Below, piece after piece: positions 1 through 63,528 of a stretch of DNA of 64,000 nucleotides (within the stretch, counting starts at the first letter, position 1; every line of letters starts with the position of its first letter). The DNA comes from Bacillota bacterium. GTDB taxonomy: Bacteria; Bacillota; Clostridia; Saccharofermentanales; Fastidiosipilaceae. The position numbers and the translations under genes were made by a program. The notes beneath the pieces were generated by a model. The model saw nothing but the letters and a program-made list of their open reading frames with translations, searched no databases and had not been told where the DNA came from. The stretch spans positions 1 through 64,000 of the forward strand of contig JASGUU010000087.1 in the NCBI GenBank assembly GCA_030057555.1, written 5' to 3'.

Positions 1-118
1 AAACATCTGGTATTAGCAACCAAAGACGCCTTGAAGAGCCCGGTGCGGGAAAACCGCACGCCGGGTTCTGTGAGGGGCAGGCAGCTTCTTGAAAAAGAAG
101 CTGACCTGTCTACTCGAC
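1..118 (+). mobile_element. 3' end of a group II intron (domains V and VI)
   Basis: Positions 36-68 fold as a textbook group II domain V. GAGCCCGG (36-43) pairs with CCGGGTTC (61-68), a two-base CG bulge sits at 59-60, and TGCGG (44-48) pairs with CCGCA (54-58) around a GAAAA loop. The catalytic AGC triad is at 37-39. Domain VI follows: GAG (72-74) pairs with CTC (113-115), GGCAGG (76-81) with CCTGTC (105-110), and CAGCTTCTT with AAGAAGCTG. A112 is left unpaired six bases before the end TACTCGAC at 118 and is the candidate branch point. The rest of the intron, including any reverse transcriptase gene, lies upstream of the window. The 3' boundary is supported by comparison with the intact repeat unit at 12601-12621, which resumes as CAAAGTCCCC. 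Confidence 0.9.
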
Positions 119-290
119 AAAGTCCCCGTCTTGACCACAAAGGGGCCGTTTCTGGTCAACTTTGGGAGTTATCCAAAGAATAATTTGGAAAGCTCGCCAT
201 CTTGACCACAAAAGGTTCGTTTCTGGTCAAAACGAAGAGTAATCCAAAAAATAATTTGGAAAACTCGCCATCCTGACCATGAAGGGCGCG
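119..290 (+). repeat. 71-bp tandem hairpin repeat array, copy 1 (interrupted by the intron)
   Basis: Units recur with a period of exactly 71 bp: the landmark TTGACCA is at 131 and 202, and a variant CTGACCA is at 273. Each unit has two inverted repeats: TTGACCA...TGGTCAA around a 15-nt loop, and CCAAA...TTTGG around a short A/T loop. The same units occur at 12423-12630. The group II intron ends at the first base shared with the other array, so it appears to have inserted inside a unit. From about 291 to 488 the sequence is unique, with a GC-rich stretch at 288-335. No gene is recognised between here and 785. Confidence 0.85.
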
Positions 291-33071: not shown

Positions 33072-33476
33072 ATGGCTCGAAAAGCATTCACACCGGAAGA
33101 AATGGAGCAGCTCAAGGAGAGCCCTTATGTGCTGAAAGTCACCCCCCGCATGGTGAACTTCAGTGCCGCGTTCAAGGAGAAGTACTGGGAGGGGGTCCAG
33201 TCTGGGCAGGATCCCCGCGAAGTCGTCAAGGAACTGGGTCTGGATCCGGAGATTCTGGGAGACACACGCCTGGATGGGCTGAAACAGACCATCCAAAGAG
33301 ACCTGAAGGCCGGCCGCGGCTTCCGGGATGTGACGAAAGAAGCCGGTGAACCGGGCTTTGGCATGAGCGATGCGAAGCGCATTGAGTATCTGGAGGCCAA
33401 GCTGGCCTACAAGGAGCAGGAGATTCTCTTTCTAAAAAAAATTGCATCCTTGTACGAAAAGAAGGCCTCCCAATGA
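33072..33476 (+). CDS. IS3-family transposase OrfA (helix-turn-helix subunit)
   Basis: Protein of 134 residues. A helix-turn-helix segment lies at about residues 26-65 (FSAAFKEKYWEGVQSG...REVVKELGL) and a C-terminal leucine-heptad helix at about 103-130 (IEYLEAKLAYKEQEILFLKK), as in OrfA proteins. The codons CTA AAA AAA ATT (33432-33443) give the slippery heptamer A AAA AAA. The -1 frame stays open from there into orfB, so an OrfAB fusion transposase can be made by ribosomal frameshifting. GAGGAGC precedes the ATG. Confidence 0.88.
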   Translation: MARKAFTPEEMEQLKESPYVLKVTPRMVNFSAAFKEKYWEGVQSGQDPREVVKELGLDPEILGDTRLDGLKQTIQRDLKAGRGFRDVTKEAGEPGFGMSDAKRIEYLEAKLAYKEQEILFLKKIASLYEKKASQ

Positions 33477-34453
33477 TCGAGATCCCCGCCAGTGACAAGT
33501 ACGCCATCATCAAGCAGATGATCGAGCGCCCGGACAACAAGTTGAGCATCGCCGCTCTCTGCGAAATGGCCAGGGTTTCACGCTCAGGCTTCTATTCGTA
33601 CCTTGACACGGCAGATGCCCGGGCGAAGCGGGAAGAGGATGACTTAAGCGCGTTTAACCGGATCCTGGAAGCCTATTCCTACCGCGGCTACCCCAAGGGA
33701 GCCAAACGGATCTACATGCATTTCCTGCATATGGATCCTCCGATTCTGATGAATCTCAAGAAGATTCGCCGTCTTATGGCCAAGTACAGCCTGCGTTGCC
33801 CGGTGCGGCGCTCCAATCCCTATCGCCGCATGGCCCGGGCCTTTGAGATGGCGAGTGTGGCACCGGATCTGGTCCAGCGCGAGTTCGAAGGACGTGGTCC
33901 ACGCAAGGTTCTGCTGACAGACATTACCTATCTCATCAATGGCGTGGCTCCACGCTGCTATCTGGTGACCATACTGGACGCGTGCACCCGGGAAGTGCTG
34001 TCCTGGCAGCTGAGTGCGTCGCTGGAAGTGGACTTCGTTCTCGCTGCCGTCCATGAGCTTCTGGAGAAGCACAAGGTAGCGCTGAGCACACAGACGATCC
34101 TGCACTCGGACCAGGGTGCTCACTTCAAGAGTGTTCGCTTCGTCCGCCTTCTGGAGGACCATGAGTTGCGACGCTCCATGTCCCGCAAGGCGAACTGCTG
34201 GGACAATGCGCCTCAGGAGTCGTTCTTCGGACACATGAAAGACGAGATCGACATCTCTGACTGCCGCAATTTCGCATCCATCCATGCAGTCATCGCCGAT
34301 TGGATGGACTACTACAACCATGAGCGCTACCAGTGGAACCTGGCTAAGCTGGCCCCGGCCGAATACTACCACTACATCTGCACAGGACGGTATCCCTTGC
34401 TGATCCCGCCACCGCAAGGAATATCAAGGCGCGAGCGAGACAATTGCGAGTAA
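33473..34453 (+). CDS. IS3-family transposase OrfB (DDE integrase)
   Basis: Catalytic subunit of 326 residues. An HTH_21-like N-terminal part contains YRGYPKGAKRIYMHF. The rve integrase core carries the DDE triad: Asp in LLTDITYL near residue 148, Asp in ILHSDQGAHF near 212, and Glu in NAPQESFFGHMKDE near 248. Its ATG overlaps the orfA stop (ATGA). No frameshift or stop interrupts it. Confidence 0.93.
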   Translation: MIEIPASDKYAIIKQMIERPDNKLSIAALCEMARVSRSGFYSYLDTADARAKREEDDLSAFNRILEAYSYRGYPKGAKRIYMHFLHMDPPILMNLKKIRRLMAKYSLRCPVRRSNPYRRMARAFEMASVAPDLVQREFEGRGPRKVLLTDITYLINGVAPRCYLVTILDACTREVLSWQLSASLEVDFVLAAVHELLEKHKVALSTQTILHSDQGAHFKSVRFVRLLEDHELRRSMSRKANCWDNAPQESFFGHMKDEIDISDCRNFASIHAVIADWMDYYNHERYQWNLAKLAPAEYYHYICTGRYPLLIPPPQGISRRERDNCE

Positions 34454-34530
34454 TGGTGGCTTCAATTGTTTTTACTCACAAAATTACAAAATTCAAAACT
34501 GTCCTTGACTTGGGGTACAGACCTTGTTTT

Positions 34531-34740
34531 GGGGCAGGAGCGGGAAAATTGGCCAGGCGTGGACAAAAATGACGCCGGTGCCCGTGTTTCGGGGCAGGAG
34601 CGGAAAAATTGTCCAGGCATGGACAAAAATGACGCCGGTGCCCGTGTTTCGGGGCAGGAACGAAAAATATGTCCAGGCATGGACAAAAATGACGCCGGTG
34701 CCCATGTTTTGGGGCAGGAGCGGAAAAATTGGCCAGGCTC
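34531..34740 (+). repeat. 60-bp tandem hairpin repeat array
   Basis: GGGGCAGGAG or a close variant starts at 34531, 34591, 34651 and 34711, a period of exactly 60 bp over about 3.5 units. Each unit has two small inverted repeats: TTGTCC...GGACAA around AGGCAT, and TGCCC...GGGCA around 8 nt. The period is a multiple of three, so ORFs remain open in several frames on both strands. None has a ribosome site, and I do not call a gene. A single diverged unit occurs at 60310-60359 on the other strand. From 34741 to 34846 the sequence is unique with no gene. Confidence 0.9.
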
Positions 34741-34846: not shown

Positions 34847-34941
34847 TGTCAAAAAAATGACTTTTGTCGCTTTTTCTGCATATTTATGCATGTTTCTGCA
34901 TATTTCGAAGATAATATGCAAACACGCGCATATTCATGCGC
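34847..34941 (+). repeat. Conserved AT-rich tail of the 60-bp-array element, copy A
   Basis: This 95-nt block matches 60192-60287 read on the minus strand: TGTCAAAAA-N6-TTTTGTC, then TCTGCATA-tt-TATGCA exactly 30 nt from the start, then ATATGCAAA, then a closing hairpin GCGCAT-attc-ATGCGC (34926-34941). It is much more AT-rich than its surroundings. It lies between convergent ends (IS element and MFS gene), as the other copy also does between convergent genes. From 34942 to 35049 there is no gene. Confidence 0.75.
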
Positions 34942-35049
34942 CAATTTGATCAAAAGTCGAAAACTTGCCAAACCACCGAGGCATCACAAACGCCGCCGAG
35001 GTGTATGAGTCAGTCATCCCGGTCAGCCGCCCGCCCGGCGCCGCTGCCT

Positions 35050-36603
35050 TCAGCGCCGGCGCAGCAGACGTCGGCACAGCAGGCGCAGCGGATACAGGGT
35101 GCGCAGGACGGAATCGCGCAGTTCGCGGCAGTAGGCAGGGAAGTCCGTCTCGCTGTCGGCCTCGAGCTTCGGGGCGATGCGCAGTACGGCGAAGGAGCGG
35201 ATCGCAGTGGCCAGCAGCAGCAGGACATGCAGCGGCTGCAGGCGAGTTCCGCCGAACCAGGGGATGTCGAGATGCTTCAGCAGCGGTGTCAGCGCGTCCG
35301 ACAGCAGGCCGCCGAGCAGTATGGCCGGTGCGACGCCCAGGAGGTTGGCGCAGATGGCCTTGGCCGTGATGTAGTAGGGCCGCATCTCGGTCGGTGCCCG
35401 GAAAACCGTGATGCCGAAAACGGCCAGGTCCGTCGCCACACCGGTTATGCCCCAGACAAAGTTGATCAGAGCAATCAGCCACCAGGTCTGCGGTACGACG
35501 AAGAACCAGCTGAGCGGCGAGAGGGCGCTGATCAGGCCAAAGAACAATAGCGAATTGCGGTAGCCGTAGTAGTCGCTGAGCCGCCCCGTACGCGTGATAA
35601 AGAGCACGGTGGCGATGCCCGGCATCAGCGTCGTCAGCAGCGTCTGAATCCCAACCGGTATGCGCAGATAACCGAGCATGTAGACATTGAGGTAGGGCGA
35701 GTTGATCTGAATGCCGAAGTAATAGATGGCGCTGAAAAGGAGAATGGGACGGTAGCTGCGGTCGCGGAAAGGCACGGCCAGATCGCGCAGGAAGCTGCGC
35801 AGACCCTCGCCGCGTTTGCGCGGTGCCGCGCCCGGCTCCGCCTCGGCTGCGGTCACGGATACAGCATCGGACGCGGCTTCGGCTGCGGCTTCGGGTGCAG
35901 CCGGCATCTGCTCGGGTGTCCGCACCTTCGTCAGCGTCAGAATGTCAAAACAGCCGAAGAGACCCGCCAGCACGAAGAGGATCGGATACTGCAGCGGATG
36001 TCCGTCGAGCAGGCGCGTCAGCGGCGTGACGAGCAGCGAATAGACAAGCATCGCCATCGTCAACAGGCGCTGGCGTGTCGAGAAGAAGCGGCCGCTGATG
36101 TGCGCCGGCACGCAGAGGCCAATCCAGGTCTGGAAGGTCACATCGGAGAGCCAGAGCACGGTCGAGGACACGGCCATCATGAAGAAGACGAAGCCCACCA
36201 GCAGCACGCGCTGCCCATCGCCGAGCACGGCTGCGGCGAGGCCCAGCACCACGAAGCTCAGCCGCACGAAGAGGCCGAGTCCGACGAAGAGCTGTTTCAG
36301 AGGCGGCTTCCGGCGCAGGAAGATGGTGAACGGAACCTGGGCGATCGCCGTCACATAGGGCAGGGCGAGCAGCGTACCGTAGAGGGAGTCGCTGAGGCGC
36401 AGCTCTTCCTTGAGGAAGGCTGCAAAGATCGGCGAGGCACCCGGAAAGCCGGTAATCACCGAGAACAGGATGCCAACGCAGACCGAGGCTGTAAACAGAT
36501 AGAGATTGCGCCGCGTCTCGCCCTCCAGCAGGACACCGTAGCTTTGCCGCGGATGGCTGAAATCCAGCAGCGAGCGCAGGCGATTCAACAGGGAACCAGG
36601 CAT
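35050..36603 (-). CDS. MFS transporter
   Basis: Protein of 517 residues from the ATG at 36603 (GGGAGGG upstream). A longer start at 36651 lies in the rpoC-distal hairpin region. About twelve hydrophobic segments are visible. An Ala/Glu-rich cytoplasmic loop (about 235-270) sits between the two halves, and a basic tail ends in RRLLRRR. Loop motifs such as GRLSDYYGYR mark the major facilitator fold. The substrate is not identifiable. It follows rpoC after 95 nt with a strong hairpin between them, so it may receive read-through from the rpoBC transcript. Confidence 0.85.
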   Translation of the reverse strand: MPGSLLNRLRSLLDFSHPRQSYGVLLEGETRRNLYLFTASVCVGILFSVITGFPGASPIFAAFLKEELRLSDSLYGTLLALPYVTAIAQVPFTIFLRRKPPLKQLFVGLGLFVRLSFVVLGLAAAVLGDGQRVLLVGFVFFMMAVSSTVLWLSDVTFQTWIGLCVPAHISGRFFSTRQRLLTMAMLVYSLLVTPLTRLLDGHPLQYPILFVLAGLFGCFDILTLTKVRTPEQMPAAPEAAAEAASDAVSVTAAEAEPGAAPRKRGEGLRSFLRDLAVPFRDRSYRPILLFSAIYYFGIQINSPYLNVYMLGYLRIPVGIQTLLTTLMPGIATVLFITRTGRLSDYYGYRNSLLFFGLISALSPLSWFFVVPQTWWLIALINFVWGITGVATDLAVFGITVFRAPTEMRPYYITAKAICANLLGVAPAILLGGLLSDALTPLLKHLDIPWFGGTRLQPLHVLLLLATAIRSFAVLRIAPKLEADSETDFPAYCRELRDSVLRTLYPLRLLCRRLLRRR

Positions 36604-36637
36604 TCGACCCTCCCCTCCCCTTTCCTTATCCTGATAA

Positions 36638-36668
36638 GCGGCGCCGTGCATCTCTCACACGGCGCCGC
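36638..36668 (-). other. Strong hairpin after rpoC
   Basis: GCGGCGCCGTG (36638-36648) pairs perfectly over 11 bp with CACGGCGCCGC (36658-36668), loop 9 nt. It lies 30 nt past the rpoC stop but has no T-run on the minus strand, so it may be a factor-assisted terminator or a 3'-end stabiliser. Confidence 0.6.
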
Positions 36669-40437: not shown

Positions 40438-44361
<3,924 letters not shown>

Positions 44362-44553: not shown

Positions 44554-44751
44554 GCTTTTCTCGCAGGCAAACGAAGTTTTTACGCTTTTTTGCAAAACTT
44601 TGTTCATTCTGCCGGCTCGAATTTCCATTTGCACAACTCATAAATCCTTTCCCGTCTATTAAATGGACAGGATGCATAAATATACAAACATTAATATGTC
44701 TGATTATATAAAGATATCAGCGTTTCACCAGCCGTATTGCAGAATGAGGGC

Positions 44752-57685: not shown

Positions 57686-58492
57686 ATGAAAAAGGGTAGA
57701 CGCATGCTGGCCCTGCTGCTGGCGCTGGTACTGGGAGCGGGTCTCGTGGCCTGTCAGAAACAGGAAGCGAAGAATGCCTTTGCGAAGCCGGAGGATCTGA
57801 AGGGCCGGCGGCTCTCGGTGCAGGCAGGTACGACGGGTCAGGATCTCGCCGAGGAGCTCAGCGGGAAGGAGAATGTCAGTGCCTTCGAGCGCTATGCCGA
57901 CGCGCTGACGGAACTCAAGCAGAAGAAGGTTGACGGCCTGGTGATGGACGGCGAGCCGGCGAAGCTGCTGGTGGCCGCGAATCCGGAGCTGGTGATTCTC
58001 GACGAGGCGCTGGCGGTCGAGGAATATGCGATTGCGGTGAAGAAGGGCAACAGCGAGCTGCTCGAGGCCATCAATGCCGTGATTGAGGAGCAGAAGGCGA
58101 GCGGCGAGATCGAGCGGAATGTGCAGGCCTATCTCGAGGATGAGGTGAAGGCGGCCGAGACGCTCGACTACAACGAGGCAGCGACCGGCGGCGAACTGCG
58201 GCTCGGGACAGAGTCGGGCTTTGCGCCCTATGAGAGCCGCATCGGCGACAGGATCGCCGGCAGCGACATCCAGCTGGGGGCGGATATCGCCCGTTCGCTG
58301 AACATGAAGCTGGTGGTGGAGGATATGGCGTTTGACGGTCTGCTGGTGGCGCTGGACAAGGGCACGATTGATCTGGTGGCGGCCGGCATGACGGTGAATG
58401 AGGAGCGCAGGCAGAGCGTCGATTTCAGTGTGCCGTATTTCAGCGCCACGCAGGTCATCATCATCCGCGCCGAGGATCTGAAAAAGCCGTGA
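57686..58492 (+). CDS. Amino-acid ABC transporter substrate-binding lipoprotein, circularly permuted
   Basis: Lipoprotein of 268 residues from the ATG at 57686 (GAGGAGG upstream). The signal peptide ends in the lipobox LVAC, Cys23. The SBP_bac_3 (GlnH-like) fold is recognisable but its halves are in reversed order. Residues 34-152 match the canonical second lobe and closing helices: EDLKGRRLSVQAGTTG, then VDGLVMDGEPAK, then VEEYAIAVKKGNSELLEAIN. Residues 170-262 match the canonical N-terminal lobe: ELRLGTESGFAPYE, then MAFDGLLVALDKGTIDLVAAGMT, then NEERRQSVDFSVPYF. The ligand residues are kept: Arg241 for the carboxylate and Asp88 for the amino group. It should bind a polar amino acid outside the membrane for the permease and ATPase encoded downstream. 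Confidence 0.9.
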   Translation: MKKGRRMLALLLALVLGAGLVACQKQEAKNAFAKPEDLKGRRLSVQAGTTGQDLAEELSGKENVSAFERYADALTELKQKKVDGLVMDGEPAKLLVAANPELVILDEALAVEEYAIAVKKGNSELLEAINAVIEEQKASGEIERNVQAYLEDEVKAAETLDYNEAATGGELRLGTESGFAPYESRIGDRIAGSDIQLGADIARSLNMKLVVEDMAFDGLLVALDKGTIDLVAAGMTVNEERRQSVDFSVPYFSATQVIIIRAEDLKKP

Positions 58493-59403
58493 CGGCGGAC
58501 GGACCGCATCAGGAGCTGCCGGGGCACAGCGTAAGCGACGCCACGGGAGTCAGCCGGCGCCCGTCCGGTACGGGTGCCGGAGCGGCGCTGTCATCCGCAG
58601 GTGCCTGGACGCGGTTTTCGCGCAGTCCGTGGTTCAATCCGCTGATGGTGACGCTGCTGGTCGCTGTGGGTGTGGTCTATTTCTTTATGACGGGTGGCGG
58701 GCCCAGGGCCAGGCTCCAGCGTCTGGCCGAGGTCTACCTGACGCAGGATCGCTGGCGCTGGCTGCTGTCGGGACTCGGTTCGACGCTGGTACTGACCCTG
58801 ATTGCGGCGGTGACCGGTGTCATGATCGGCCTCGTGCTGTCCGTGATCCGCATGGCCTGGCGGGCGGGGGCGCCGATCCCGCTGCTGAATCTCTTTGCCG
58901 AGACCTATGTGACGGTGGTGCGCGGGACGCCGGTGACGGTCCAGCTGATGATCATCTACTTTGGTTTGTTCGCGGATCTGCCGGTGAGCCGGGTGCTGGC
59001 GGCGGGCCTGGCCTTCGGGATCAACTCGGGGGCCTATGTAGCCGAGATTTTCCGTGCCGGCATCGAGTCCGTCGATGGGGGACAGATGGAGGCGGCGCGT
59101 TCACTGGGGCTGCCCTATCTGCTGGCGATGCGGAAGGTTGTGCTGCCGCAGGCGTTTCGCAACGTCCTGCCGACGCTGGTGAACGAATTCATCACGCTGC
59201 TCAAGGAGACGGCCGTCGCCGGCTACATCGCCGTCGAAGATCTGACGCGCGAGGCCAACAATATCCGTACCAAGACCTTCGACATAGGCCCTCTCTATGT
59301 GACGGCTCTGATCTATCTGGTGCTGGTGCTGCTGCTGACGCTGCTGCTGCGCCGCGTGGAAAGGAAGCTCCGTGAAGGTGATCGAAGTCAGGTCAATATC
59401 TAA
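58489..59403 (+). CDS. Amino-acid ABC transporter permease (HisM/GlnP type)
   Basis: Protein of 304 residues starting at a GTG that overlaps the stop of the binding-protein gene (GTGA). About 45 hydrophilic residues precede the first membrane helix. A distal start is possible but would remove an otherwise open, in-operon segment. Five to six membrane helices follow, with the EAA loop MEAARSLGLPYLLAMRKVVLPQAFR near residue 200, which contacts the ATPase. The permease presumably acts as a homodimer, since only one permease gene is present. Confidence 0.92.
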   Translation: MTADGPHQELPGHSVSDATGVSRRPSGTGAGAALSSAGAWTRFSRSPWFNPLMVTLLVAVGVVYFFMTGGGPRARLQRLAEVYLTQDRWRWLLSGLGSTLVLTLIAAVTGVMIGLVLSVIRMAWRAGAPIPLLNLFAETYVTVVRGTPVTVQLMIIYFGLFADLPVSRVLAAGLAFGINSGAYVAEIFRAGIESVDGGQMEAARSLGLPYLLAMRKVVLPQAFRNVLPTLVNEFITLLKETAVAGYIAVEDLTREANNIRTKTFDIGPLYVTALIYLVLVLLLTLLLRRVERKLREGDRSQVNI

Positions 59404-60118
59404 GGCCTACGGCGACAACCTCGTGCTGGATGAGGTGTCGCTCGAAGTCGGGCGCGGCGAGACGATTGCGATCATCGGACCGTCGGGTTCGGGGAAGAGC
59501 ACGCTGCTGCGCTGCATGAACCGGCTCGAGGAGGTCGACAGCGGAGAGATTTTTATCGACGGCGAGGCGATCACCGGGCGGGGGGGCAGGCGGCTGGATC
59601 TGGTGCGGCGGCGCATGGGCATGGTGTTCCAGCAGTTCAACCTGTTTCCGCACCTGACGGTGGCCGGAAACATCACGCTGGCGCCGGTGAGTCTGCGGAT
59701 GATGCGGCCGGCAGCGGCGCGCGAGCGGGCGCGGGAGCTGCTGCGGCAGGTCGGGCTCGAGGAGAAGCTCGACAGCTGGCCGGATCAGCTGTCAGGTGGC
59801 CAGAAGCAGCGGGTGGCCATCGCGCGGGCGCTGGCGATGGATCCCGAGGTCATGCTCTTTGACGAGCCGACTTCGGCGCTCGACCCGGAGATGGTGGGCG
59901 AGGTGCTGCGTGTGATGCGCGATCTCTCCGAAGCCGGCATGACGATGCTGGTGGTCAGCCACGAGCTCGCCTTTGTGCGGCAGGCGGCGACGCGGGTGCT
60001 GTTTATGGATGCGGGGAAGCTGGCGGTGGATCTGCCGCCGGCCGAATTGTTCGACCGGCCGCCGAATCAGCGCATCCGCGATTTTCTGGACGCCGTGCAG
60101 CAGAAGGACGCGGTCTAG
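59372..60118 (+). CDS. Amino-acid ABC transporter ATPase (GlnQ/HisP type)
   Basis: Protein of 248 residues from a GTG start that overlaps the permease gene by 32 nt. Walker A is GPSGSGKST near residue 33, signature LSGGQKQR near 140, Walker B VMLFDEPTSALDPEMVGEV near 161, and the H-loop His in VVSHELAF. It energises uptake through the adjacent permease. A hairpin with T-tract follows the stop. Confidence 0.96.
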   Translation: MKVIEVRSISKAYGDNLVLDEVSLEVGRGETIAIIGPSGSGKSTLLRCMNRLEEVDSGEIFIDGEAITGRGGRRLDLVRRRMGMVFQQFNLFPHLTVAGNITLAPVSLRMMRPAAARERARELLRQVGLEEKLDSWPDQLSGGQKQRVAIARALAMDPEVMLFDEPTSALDPEMVGEVLRVMRDLSEAGMTMLVVSHELAFVRQAATRVLFMDAGKLAVDLPPAELFDRPPNQRIRDFLDAVQQKDAV

Positions 60119-60190
60119 GCAGCAGCGCCACCGTGCGGTGACCGGCAGAGCGAGGTCCTTCGTTGTCAAAAAACCGGGTTGTGAACAGAG

Positions 60191-60214
60191 CGGTGCATAA
60201 AAATGCACCGTTTT
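60191..60214 (+). terminator. Terminator of the ABC transporter operon
   Basis: CGGTGCAT-AAAA-ATGCACCG forms a perfect 8-bp stem with a 4-nt loop, followed by TTTT. The same hairpin is the closing structure of the repeated element described at 60192-60287 on the other strand. Confidence 0.75.
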
Positions 60215-60287
60215 GCATAGACGCTGCGTTATATTCATCTACTTGCATATTTATGCAGAGAAAGTGACAAAACACGGCTTTTTGACA
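60192..60287 (-). repeat. Conserved AT-rich tail of the 60-bp-array element, copy B
   Basis: Read on the minus strand this matches 34847-34941: TGTCAAAAA-N6-TTTTGTC, the TGCATA/TATGCA palindrome (60244-60257) 30 nt from the start, TATGCAAA, and a closing GGTGCAT/ATGCACC hairpin. Copy A has GCGCAT/ATGCGC instead, so a C-G pair has become T-A on both sides. It lies between the convergent transporter and VanZ-like genes. Confidence 0.75.
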
Positions 60288-60309
60288 CCTCCATGTGTCG
60301 CTGAACAAG

Positions 60310-60359
60310 TGAGCATTCGTTTCTGCCCCGGATTTGGGGCAGCAGCGTCTTTTTTGACC
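60310..60359 (-). repeat. Single diverged 60-bp-array unit
   Basis: On the minus strand GGTCAAAAAAGACGC is followed by TGCCCC-aaatcc-GGGGCAG and AAACG. This lines up with one unit of the array at 34531-34740 (GGACAAAAATGACGC, TGCCC, GGGGCAG, GAGCG). It is immediately upstream of tail copy B, so the element here has one unit where the other locus has nearly four. Confidence 0.7.
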
Positions 60360-60381
60360 ATCGCAGTTCCCGAACGCCCGC

Positions 60382-61071
60382 CTATGTTTTGCGACGGCGC
60401 AGCAGGCGATAGATCACACTCACGAGCCAGCAGACCAGCAGCATCAGCAGGCCGCCGGTGGAGTTCAGCAGCAGATCATTGATGTCGACGATGCGCCAAC
60501 AGCTCCCGCTGAGCATGTTGATGGCAAGCTGGCCGAGCTCGATCAGCATGCTGATGAGAATAATGGTGCTCTGAACAATCACGATACGATCGCCGAGACC
60601 GGTGAGGATGCCGCCGCTTCTGCGCCGGCGGGACCGGGGCTTTGCCCAGCGCCACCAGGCGGCGGCGAGCCAGAACAGCAGGGCGGCGGGCATCAGCAGG
60701 ACGAGATTGCCCACCTGATTGATCAGAAAGGTGCGCATGGGCGCCGCGTTGCCCCGGGCGAGCTCGGAGTTCGAGAGTGTCCAGGAATGGAGGAGTGATG
60801 TGAAAGGGCGCAGGACGATGGCGCCGGCCTCGTACAGTTCCGCGAGGCTGGCTCGGCTGCGGCCGAAGGCCGGCAGTGGGAAAAAGACGGCGGCGGCGAG
60901 GGTGACGAGGTAGAAGGCGGCGAGAGCGGCCAGCACGGCAGCGCAGAGGCGCTGCTTCCGGACCAGGCGGCCGGAGCGTGAACGCCCGGGGAGACAGGCC
61001 AGAGCGAAGGCCAGTACGGCGGCAATCAGGGCAGGGGGCAGCCAGCTGCGCCAGAATGTGAATAATCGCAT
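60382..61071 (-). CDS. VanZ-like membrane protein
   Basis: Protein of 229 residues with about five hydrophobic segments. The VanZ-family blocks ALFWLAAAWW, STIILISMLIELGQL and WRIVDINDLLLNSTGGLLM are visible. The glutamate in IELGQ and the DINDLLLN motif are the best-conserved features. In enterococci VanZ confers low-level teicoplanin resistance. Most chromosomal homologues have no proven role. It has no operon partner: the plus-strand genes on either side are convergent and divergent. Confidence 0.88.
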   Translation of the reverse strand: MRLFTFWRSWLPPALIAAVLAFALACLPGRSRSGRLVRKQRLCAAVLAALAAFYLVTLAAAVFFPLPAFGRSRASLAELYEAGAIVLRPFTSLLHSWTLSNSELARGNAAPMRTFLINQVGNLVLLMPAALLFWLAAAWWRWAKPRSRRRRSGGILTGLGDRIVIVQSTIILISMLIELGQLAINMLSGSCWRIVDINDLLLNSTGGLLMLLVCWLVSVIYRLLRRRKT

Positions 61072-61265: not shown

Positions 61266-61874
61266 ATGAATGTACAGTCCCACTGGTACATGTCGAAGCT
61301 GATCATCCGTGAAGTCAACCGGCGCCTGCCGATTCACATCTCCGAGACGGCTTTTGTGGCCGGATCGATTCTCGCCGACTACAGCCTGATCACGCTGCGT
61401 CACAAACATCTGACGACCAGATCGCTCGACTTTATCAAAGAGAACATCCACTTTATGACGACGGTCGGTCCGGAGTTTGAGATTCTGGCCGACAACTATC
61501 TCGTTGCCTATCACCTGGGTATCATTACGCACTATATCTGCGATTTCTTCTGTGAGGCGCACAGCGGCGAGACCTTTGGCAATACGCGTGAGCATATGCA
61601 GTATGAGGATTTCCTCGACAACTACCGCTATACCCATGCGGAGCAGCTGGCCAGGCTCGAATGGTCCCAGGATATTTCGCCGATGCGCAGCCCTGAGGAG
61701 ATCAACGATTTTCTCGACAGTGAGCTCGCCGCCTACCGCAGTCAGGGACAGTCGGTGCGCCGGGATCTGGAGCTCGCGATAGGCAATTCCATAGCCATCC
61801 TGTATTCCATGGCCGTGATCCGCCTGACGCAGATGGAACTGCTGCCGTCGGCGGTGGTGGTGACCAGCCGCTAG
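61266..61874 (+). CDS. Zinc-dependent phospholipase C-like family protein
   Basis: Protein of 202 residues without a signal peptide. The His/Asp metal-ligand pattern of the PF00882 group is spread along it: H6 in VQSHWY, H24 in PIHISE, the GSILADYS Asp, HHLG-type segments near residue 83 (AYHLGIITHYICDFFCEAHS) and a later EHMQYE. This intracellular short form is common in Bacillota, usually annotated as zinc-dependent phospholipase C family, with no demonstrated substrate. No clear Shine-Dalgarno is seen before the ATG (GAAAG only). The following 125 nt to the sulfatase stop contain no gene. Confidence 0.82.
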   Translation: MNVQSHWYMSKLIIREVNRRLPIHISETAFVAGSILADYSLITLRHKHLTTRSLDFIKENIHFMTTVGPEFEILADNYLVAYHLGIITHYICDFFCEAHSGETFGNTREHMQYEDFLDNYRYTHAEQLARLEWSQDISPMRSPEEINDFLDSELAAYRSQGQSVRRDLELAIGNSIAILYSMAVIRLTQMELLPSAVVVTSR

Positions 61875-61998
61875 AGGCACATCGCCGCGGCCCTGAGAAC
61901 AGCCGGGTGTACCGGCTGTTTTTACGCACTACAAGCTGGAATGGGCTCTGCATGCCGGGGTGGGCTTTGGGGCCGCCCTGTATTTTCGTGCCTTCTGT

Positions 61999-63528
61999 CT
62001 ACCTGTTCCGGGCCGGCGGCGGAGGCCAGTGTCCGCCGCGTTGGCCGGACAGTCTGTAGTTGCGGTCCGGGGGCAGCATGGCAGGTGCCTCATAGCCCAC
62101 GAGACTGCCGCCTGAGATCCAGTTCCGGTCATCGCCGTAGAGGGCGTCCATGAGTTCCCGCGTCAGCCGCTCAAGTACGGGAGCGAGTGTCGGATCTCCT
62201 GCCGCGGCGGCAGCGAAGAGATCCTGCCTGTCGCAGGGATCGGCGACGACGTCGAAGAGCTGGCGGCGATTGCCGCAGGGATAGTAGATCAGCTTGTGCC
62301 GGCCGTCGGTGACCATGCGGGTGGCCGTGAGATCATCGGAGATCTCACCGTAGACCAGCGTACGTGACTGTGAGGCGAAGAGGCTGACGCCGTCGACGCT
62401 GTCGGGGATCGGCAGCTCGCAGAGATCGAGCAGGGTGGGCATCAGATCCTCGAGGCAGCCGAGGCGGGCGGAGCTCTCCCCGATGCCGGGGGCGAGGCGG
62501 GCCAGCATGGGTCCCGAGAGTATGAGCGGAATGTGGGCCGCGTTCTGGTAGAAGCTGCGCTTGGCCACCATGCCGTGGTCGAAGAGCATGTCCCCATGAT
62601 CCGACGTGAACACGATGATGGTGTTGTCGAGCCAGCCGTGCTCGCCGAGGCTCCCGATCACGCGGCGCAGCTGGTGGTCGATCAGGGTGCACTGGGCATA
62701 GAAGGCGCGGCGGGCCTGACGGATGTCGTCGGCCGAATAGCCGGCGGCGGCCCGGCCGAGCAGCCGCAGCGCCGTGTCGTCGCCGGCTGCCTCGTCGTCC
62801 CGGGCTGCACGGCGCGACCAGTCGCCCCAGACGGGCTCCGGGATCTCGACATCGCGGTAGAGATCGAGATAGGAAGAGAGCGGCACGAGCGGGGGGTGCG
62901 GATAGGCGTAGGAGAGATAGAGCAGGGCGGGGCGCGTGGGATCGAGGCGCTGGATGATGCGGATCATCTGGTTCGTGGTCCAGACCGTGCCGTGCGCCTC
63001 CTCGGGCAGATGCCAGGGACGCGTCTCGTAGGAGTTGTTCGCGAGGCCGTGGTCGAATTCGCGGCCGGCGAGGCCCTGTTCGCCGAGCCAGATTTGATAG
63101 TCGTCGACGACGCCGAACTGATAGCGGCCCTCCTCGAGCAGCACGACGTCATCGAAGCCGATGCGGCTGCGCTGCGGATAGACGTGGAGCTTTCCGGCCG
63201 CCCAGGTCTGGTAGCCGGCCGAACCAAAGCACTCGGCAAGAGTCGGCAGCGCCGGCATCGGCAGGCGCTCGAGGTAGACGCGGTCGCCGTGCATGCGCGG
63301 CGTGGTGCCGGTCATCAGTGAGCGGCGCGCCGGGATGCAGACGGGGCAGCTCGAATAGAATTGCGTGAAGCGGATGCCGTCCCGGGCCAGACGGTCGAGC
63401 GTGGGGGTCTTGATCGCCGGATGACCGGCCACCCGCAGCAGGTCGGCCGTCCAGTGGTCGACCGTAACGAGCAGTACGTTCGGCCGCTCCGGGCGTTCAA
63501 AGGGTCGCAGATCGAGATGACTGGGCAT
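61999..63528 (-). CDS. Sulfatase (alkaline phosphatase superfamily), Cys-type
   Basis: Protein of 509 residues from the ATG at 63528 (GGAGGT seven bases upstream). The longer in-frame start at 63648 crosses the intergenic region. Type I sulfatase motifs are present: metal-binding VTVDHW near residue 22, the modification motif C64-I-P-A-R followed by RSLMTG, TSDHGDML near 330 and a C-terminal substrate subdomain. Cys64 must be oxidised to formylglycine, which in anaerobes is done by a radical SAM maturase not encoded here. No signal peptide is visible, so it is probably cytoplasmic, acting on imported sulfated or phosphonate-type esters. Confidence 0.9.
   Translation of the reverse strand: MPSHLDLRPFERPERPNVLLVTVDHWTADLLRVAGHPAIKTPTLDRLARDGIRFTQFYSSCPVCIPARRSLMTGTTPRMHGDRVYLERLPMPALPTLAECFGSAGYQTWAAGKLHVYPQRSRIGFDDVVLLEEGRYQFGVVDDYQIWLGEQGLAGREFDHGLANNSYETRPWHLPEEAHGTVWTTNQMIRIIQRLDPTRPALLYLSYAYPHPPLVPLSSYLDLYRDVEIPEPVWGDWSRRAARDDEAAGDDTALRLLGRAAAGYSADDIRQARRAFYAQCTLIDHQLRRVIGSLGEHGWLDNTIIVFTSDHGDMLFDHGMVAKRSFYQNAAHIPLILSGPMLARLAPGIGESSARLGCLEDLMPTLLDLCELPIPDSVDGVSLFASQSRTLVYGEISDDLTATRMVTDGRHKLIYYPCGNRRQLFDVVADPCDRQDLFAAAAAGDPTLAPVLERLTRELMDALYGDDRNWISGGSLVGYEAPAMLPPDRNYRLSGQRGGHWPPPPARNR

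Follow-up and report, generated by a model that had tools for sequence, protein, structure and literature searches.

Towards the end of the 64,000-bp stretch of DNA analysed here (the window, which comes from a 2.9 Mb draft genome in 90 contigs), a gap between two convergent genes holds a short palindromic sequence that recurs elsewhere in the window. An earlier note had described the two copies as the 95-nt tail of an intergenic element, which begins with a variable number of 60-bp units and closes with a covarying hairpin. This raises the question of what the tail is and which function its conserved part points to.

Two copies in the window and the anatomy of the family

The likeness of the two copies, A and B, was borne out: nucleotides 60287-60179 of the minus strand aligned with 34847-34955 over 109 nt without a gap (70% identity, E 5e-8 in a search of the window), and the proposed spacings were kept exactly, with the palindromes 50 bp apart in both copies. 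The tail had been drawn too short, as an inverted right arm closes both copy A (to 34970) and copy B (to 60164). The two complete copies share one layout, consisting of a 20-bp arm, 10 bp, a 64-bp core, 10 bp and a second 20-bp arm (Table 1). In copy B the best 24-bp window of the arms paired at 18 of 24 positions, compared with about 13 in shuffled sequences. Both copies were placed correctly in convergent gaps, and the gene ORFs agree: copy A has a transposase-like ORF (plus strand, with its end at 34453) on one side and a gene at 35050-36651 (minus strand) on the other, and copy B lies between genes at 59372-60118 (plus strand) and 60382-61071 (minus strand). The 3' end of the amino-acid ABC operon upstream of copy B is 75 bp from its core, and the substrate-binding protein of this operon was best matched by the NCBIfam model TIGR01096 (Lys/Arg/Orn subfamily), below the cut-off. 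The position of copy B behind such an operon may be due to chance.

Table 1. Coordinates of repeat elements and neighbouring genes in the window
Feature	Position	Strand	Remarks
Copy A, complete beta-class ArgR-core element, 124 bp	34847-34970	+	R1 E 5.2e-16
Copy A, arms	34847-34866 and 34951-34970		
Copy A, core	34877-34940	+	ARG boxes 34877-34890 and 34927-34940; half-sites 34897-34902 and 34915-34920
Copy B, complete beta-class ArgR-core palindromic element, 124 bp	60164-60287	-	R1 E 3.4e-14
Copy B, outer arm TGTCAAAAAGCCGTGTTTTG	60268-60287	-	inverted repeat with 60164-60183
Copy B, outer arm TGTCAAAAAACCGGGTTGTG	60164-60183	+	pairs with 60268-60287
Copy B, 64-bp core	60194-60257	-	ARG boxes 60244-60257 (TGCATATTTATGCA) and 60194-60207 (TGCATAAAAATGCA)
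Copy B, core half-sites	60214-60219 and 60232-60237	-	
Tandem array of 60-bp units beside copy A, 3.6 copies	34522-34738	+	
Single unit of the 60-bp palindromic family near copy B	60302-60360	-	TGGTCAA..TGCCCC(5)GGGGCA..TTGTTCA
Coreless delta 71-bp tandem repeat	129-279		arms TGGTCAA..ATCCAAA/TTTGGA..TTGACCA
Second coreless delta-class 71-bp tandem array	12437-12626		
Amino-acid ABC operon upstream of copy B	57686-60118	+	substrate-binding protein, permease, GlnQ-type ATPase
Convergent neighbour of copy B	60382-61071	-	without NCBIfam match

The 60-bp unit that had been noticed on the minus strand beside copy B was recovered (alignment 60361-60316, 46 nt, 78%). It belongs to a family that this genome carries at about 35 loci, each with an array of 1-7 units, and that was absent from 27 relatives outside the genus in a genome search. 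A profile of the unit matched every unit on both strands, which shows the unit to be palindromic (TGGACAA..GTGCCC(6)GGGGCA..TTGTCCA). Array and tail occur within 400 bp of each other at only four of the roughly 35 array loci (A, B, C62 and C11), and the gap between unit and tail is about 108 bp at A and 14 bp at B. As the two families occur separately and the gap varies, a composite element of array and tail was rejected. What stood of the earlier proposal is an intergenic family with fixed spacing, a bias towards convergent gaps and more copies, also in a relative; what did not stand is the union of array and tail into one element of variable unit number. At three places (window 33473-34530, L034 and L045) the 60-bp arrays are abutted by the end of an insertion sequence with a transposase (GACTTGGGGTACAGACC / TGGTCTGTACCCCAAGTC), which suggests that this insertion sequence targets or accompanies the arrays. 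In the congeneric genome about 10 palindromic units, two variants of the 60-bp family in alternation, lie downstream of a tRNA gene (L163, 1658-2258).

The tail family has as its core a 64-bp dyad with the consensus TGCATAwwTATkCA-N6-TGCATA-N11/12-TATGCA-N6-TGmATAwwTATGCA, and most copies have the two 14-bp palindromes at a distance of exactly 50 bp. The half-sites carry 1.40 bits per column and the spacers 0.24 bits. The arms are inverted repeats (on average 18.6 of 24 positions paired, control 12.9) and fall into four or more classes that are unrelated to one another, among them alpha (TGTGCAAAATTTCAACCTTTCGCA), beta (TGTCAAAAAATCGAGTTGTG), gamma and delta (TGGTCAAAAC..ATCCAAA). The same arm types were found with and without a core. 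Coreless alpha is a 57-bp palindrome (24+9+24 bp) arranged in 71-bp tandem arrays, of which 18 units were counted at several intergenic loci and none inside genes in a 464-kb sample; delta arms, coreless in both arrays of the window, enclose the core at L132 and L136. When units were searched by arm pairing only, the alpha loop came in two lengths in the genome of the window, 9 nt in 18 units and 90 nt in 12; in the congener, 40 of 46 units had loops of 89-90 nt. These loop lengths indicate that the core is a module of about 80 bp which the loop may hold or lack, and at one pair of orthologous gaps (L162/L202) the alpha unit is cored in the congener and coreless in the genome of the window.

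Several of these arrays showed further peculiarities. Window 34-118 holds the 3'-terminal part of a group II intron (Rfam RF00029), which ends about 10 bp short of the first coreless delta array, and such palindromes might serve as landing sites for group II introns. In the congener, three tandem alpha units of 152 bp with alternating core types occupy 1928-2741 of L185; the orthologous gap (window 61874-61999) is empty in the genome of the window and lies two gaps away from copy B. The coreless alpha arrays at L202 (13069-13338) and L206 (16790-17343) are homogenised within each locus and yet retain, at one position of the arms, non-complementary dinucleotides specific to the locus (GG versus CC), whereas the arms in the congener are perfect.

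Predicted ArgR operators in the core

A sequence-only model (R1) was built from 17 repeat copies of the genome of the window and run on 58 genomes. Outside the genus, 17 of the 28 best-hit loci were located 26-121 bp upstream of argC, argG, argJ, argF or carB, and the gene families downstream were confirmed by NCBIfam. By our estimate, a random intergenic site would be so placed in well under 1% of cases. The arrangement of the core, a box followed by N6 and a half-site, recurs in four argC promoters of the order, and its mirror image in two argG promoters. In both species of the genus the argC promoter carries TGCATA-N11/12-TATGCA, which equals the middle of the core (R1 E 8e-5 and 1.2e-4). 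The centres of adjacent boxes are 20 bp apart in the core as they are in the arg promoters of the order, a distance of about one ArgR footprint (20-21 bp). Taken together, the R1 matches in arg promoters and the shared spacing lead us to read the 64-bp core as two mirror-image ArgR operators, each predicted to consist of a full ARG box, N6 and a half box. The 14-bp TGNATWWWWATNCA-type palindrome of the core corresponds to the general ARG-box consensus. In E. coli, ArgR operators are made of 18-bp boxes with 2-3 bp between them (PMC3293853), which the 20-bp centre spacing predicted here fits.

Each of the two genomes of the genus encodes one canonical ArgR; the protein at L166 has 160 amino acids. 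In the genome of the window the ARG-box pattern was found at 71 sites with two mismatches or fewer, compared with 3 sites when the pattern was reversed. Every one of the 8 perfect ARG boxes lies inside an element. Binding of ArgR to the core is predicted with high confidence. The earlier note had named a likeness limited to the TGCATA palindrome as a sign against a family. The conserved part does consist of TGCATA half-sites, but these are held at fixed spacing because they are, on our reading, the half-sites of ArgR.

The arg promoters of the genus itself (L166, L168, L171) seem rearranged relative to other genera of the order, with paired sites in argC. No strong ARG box was found in the argG promoters of the genus, so that the genus may have shifted its usage of ArgR. 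In the window an isolated, strong ARG-box-like site outside the repeats (TGCATAAATATACA, 44673-44686, 19.7 of 24.5 bits) is located about 310 bp upstream of 40438-44361, a gene whose product has 1307 amino acids.

Distribution, position and constraint

The search for further copies that the earlier note had proposed, in the genome and its relatives, yielded about 35 loci with the TGCATA core element in the genome of the window and about 45 in its congener, the two genomes that represent the genus; the former was analysed from search hits and a sample of about 400 kb of genome stretches. In 56 other genomes of the order only weak matches were obtained, and the alpha arm unit was absent from all of them. 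An exact pattern of three quarters of the core gave 3 matches in 84,980 species genomes, a set from which the closest records to the genome of the window may be missing, and these matches differed in architecture on inspection; in viral contigs the pattern had no match. By these searches, the element family is restricted to one genus among the genomes covered.

At about 10 loci the orthologous gap of the congener is also cored, sometimes with another arm class, and other gaps are empty there. These differences in arm class and core presence between orthologous loci point to a high turnover. For four pairs (L153/L195, L162/L202, L163/L199 and L185/window 61874-61999) the gaps were too diverged to be aligned for an empty site or a duplication, while the L002/L151 gap contained additional sequence and a terminator region in duplicate, without a clean target duplication. 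Relative to the genes, four alpha units had the same and two the opposite orientation, too few for a bias in orientation to show.

None of 26 loci in the genome of the window was inside a gene, though 85% of the DNA is coding. As for a relation to gene 3' ends, which had been suggested for checking, 20 of 44 loci in both species were found in convergent gaps, compared with 28 of 186 gaps in the sample (p=1.6e-6). Where the gap was tandem, 12 of 17 loci were closer to the 3' end of the upstream gene. The genes that face the elements encode, among others, DAHP synthase, glycoside hydrolases, dnaX, Trk, a sulfatase and a pyruvate formate-lyase type protein, none of them related to arginine; the one closest to nitrogen metabolism is a type III glutamine synthetase. 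Since the elements mostly lie away from arginine-gene promoters, they are better regarded as repeats that bear predicted ArgR sites than as operators of the regulon.

At six orthologous loci, identity between the two species was 81% over the 36 half-site positions and 35% over the 24 spacer positions; for random non-orthologous pairs the values were 77% and 35%. The spacers have thus diverged to random level and the half-sites are kept. This conservation is partly biased, as half-sites served in part to find the copies, but the arm-anchored search agrees with it: nearly all long-loop units keep the half-sites and a few are degenerate (L159, L185, L179).

Claims about RNA structure fared less well. 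The closing hairpin had been reported to covary, but in 59 non-redundant cores the half-sites varied independently, with p=0.98 for the closing palindrome, 0.65 for the first one, 0.44 for the long hairpin and 0.97 for the middle. The sole deviation was seen when the inner half was compared with its mirror (p=0.008). The apparently compensated pair between A and B (GCGCAT/ATGCGC versus GTGCAT/ATGCAC) reflects chance between two copies, as each half-site tolerates T to C. Mismatches in the arms were mostly T-T, with no excess of G-T (3, compared with 7 A-C). The hairpin of copy B had also been taken for a terminator; terminator-like sites numbered 0, where shuffles gave an expectation of 0.9. 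In a search of Rfam no family matched the element.

Possible roles and known systems

Our main reading, to which we give a probability of about 0.6, is that the tail is a dispersed intergenic palindromic repeat with paired ArgR operators, serving as an architectural or boundary site in the manner of the BIME-1/RIB elements of E. coli. Arginine-loaded ArgR hexamers would occupy the repeat-borne sites in the cell, taking the place that IHF has between the inverted arms of BIME-1/RIB, and would bend or bridge the DNA there; the repeats would then be arginine-dependent architectural or boundary sites and not promoter operators. The parts of this reading differ in strength. A dispersed role outside promoters is probable. 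The specifically architectural or boundary role is put forward tentatively, at slightly under even odds. The wider idea that ArgR has become in this genus a dispersed chromosome-organising or boundary protein, with its sites spread by a modular palindromic repeat and arginine controlling dozens of non-promoter nucleoprotein sites, is more speculative still.

An unlikely but still the best surviving alternative is titration, in which the repeats would form a chromosomal decoy reservoir that sets the arginine level for repression of the few real arg operators. The elements outnumber the arg operators and hold every perfect box, the genus's own argC and argG promoters have weaker or rearranged boxes, and in E. 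coli synthetic decoys for ArgR relieve the repression of arg genes (PMC7826281). Titration requires, however, neither a fixed two-operator geometry nor orthologous positions nor a bias towards convergent gaps, and any repeat that binds ArgR could bring it about incidentally. Architecture and titration could also hold together.

A little less likely is that ArgR acts as an accessory factor in the recombination or spread of the repeat, as ArgR and PepA do for XerCD at ColE1 cer (PMC5357621). This precedent, the terminal inverted arms, the tandem units and the gain and loss of cores between the species would suit such a role; against it, neither a core site for a recombinase nor a target duplication could be recognised, arms that lack the core also spread and build arrays although they have no ARG boxes, and a Y1/RAYT transposase is absent from the genome of the window and present only as a broken copy in the congener.

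That the repeats are neutral or selfish palindromes with chance TGCATA motifs and no present ArgR function is improbable as well. High turnover, tandem arrays and the occurrence in one genus only among the genomes searched are what such repeats would show, but the half-sites are kept against spacers at random level, both at orthologous loci and in copies found by their arms.

It is very improbable that the elements are promoter operators which extend the arginine regulon to their neighbours. Some are situated 41-250 bp upstream of a gene, one is beside the type III glutamine synthetase and one after the Lys/Arg/Orn-type ABC operon; yet the many loci in convergent gaps have no promoter to control, those in tandem gaps lean towards the upstream 3' end, and the facing genes are mostly unrelated to arginine. 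An RNA hairpin or terminator with compensatory changes, as first proposed, was rejected and is the least credible reading: arms and boxes could fold as RNA and the sites are near gene 3' ends, but the lack of covariation, of a G-T excess, of terminator-like sites and of an Rfam family, and the core geometry shared with arg promoters, speak against it.

Among known repeats, BIME-1/RIB elements carry a site for the DNA-bending protein IHF between two inverted arms and are found at gene 3' ends (PMC2817692). The elements described here resemble them in architecture only, with inverted arms that enclose a putative protein site, intergenic positions at the 3' ends of transcription units and tandem forms (PMC2817692), and differ in that they carry predicted ArgR operators instead of an IHF site, as an optional module. 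REP palindromes are 20-40 bp long and GTAG- or CGTC-tagged (PMC3733652), whereas the arms here (TGTGCAAAATTTCAACC.., TGTCAAAAAA.., TGGTCAAAAC..) form several classes unrelated to REP. With no such tagged REP and no RAYT (Y1) transposase found in the genome of the window, a REP/RAYT system is unsupported. In the congener, a match to a Y1-type (IS200/RAYT-like) transposase (L212, C163) is broken by four stop codons. MITEs and Correia-type elements are likewise short, non-coding and dispersed with terminal inverted arms, but the family here has a fixed 57-bp body, a 71-bp tandem period and a modular core; no target-site duplication or parent transposase was identified, the gaps being too diverged and the transposase search unsystematic.

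Among ArgR systems, the operators of ArgR/AhrC share with the core the 14-bp palindrome, the 20-bp centre spacing and the layout seen in arg promoters of the order; here, two predicted operators are mirrored in a 64-bp module that is present at about 35 loci, flanked by palindromic arms and mostly away from arginine genes. At ColE1 cer, ArgR is an architectural factor at a non-promoter site (PMC5357621), as is tentatively proposed here, but our elements are chromosomal and multicopy, and no XerCD core site was identified in them. The synthetic decoys (PMC7826281) are similar in being additional sites by which ArgR could be titrated and different in being engineered single sites on plasmids. 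If bound, the repeats would make up most strong ArgR sites in the genome, and arginine would exert its effect at DNA sites distant from the arginine genes, via titration or architecture. The placement of the predicted sites, mostly away from arginine genes, suggests that ArgR, well known as a gene switch, also has a predicted repeat-borne, chromosome-wide role, and that repeats can rewrite the binding landscape of a transcription factor. The open literature that we searched, with incomplete coverage, held no report of a repeat family with conserved paired operators of a metabolic repressor. Repeats that carry the site of a nucleoid protein are known from IHF in RIBs; apparently new is a pair of predicted metabolic-repressor operators as the conserved part.
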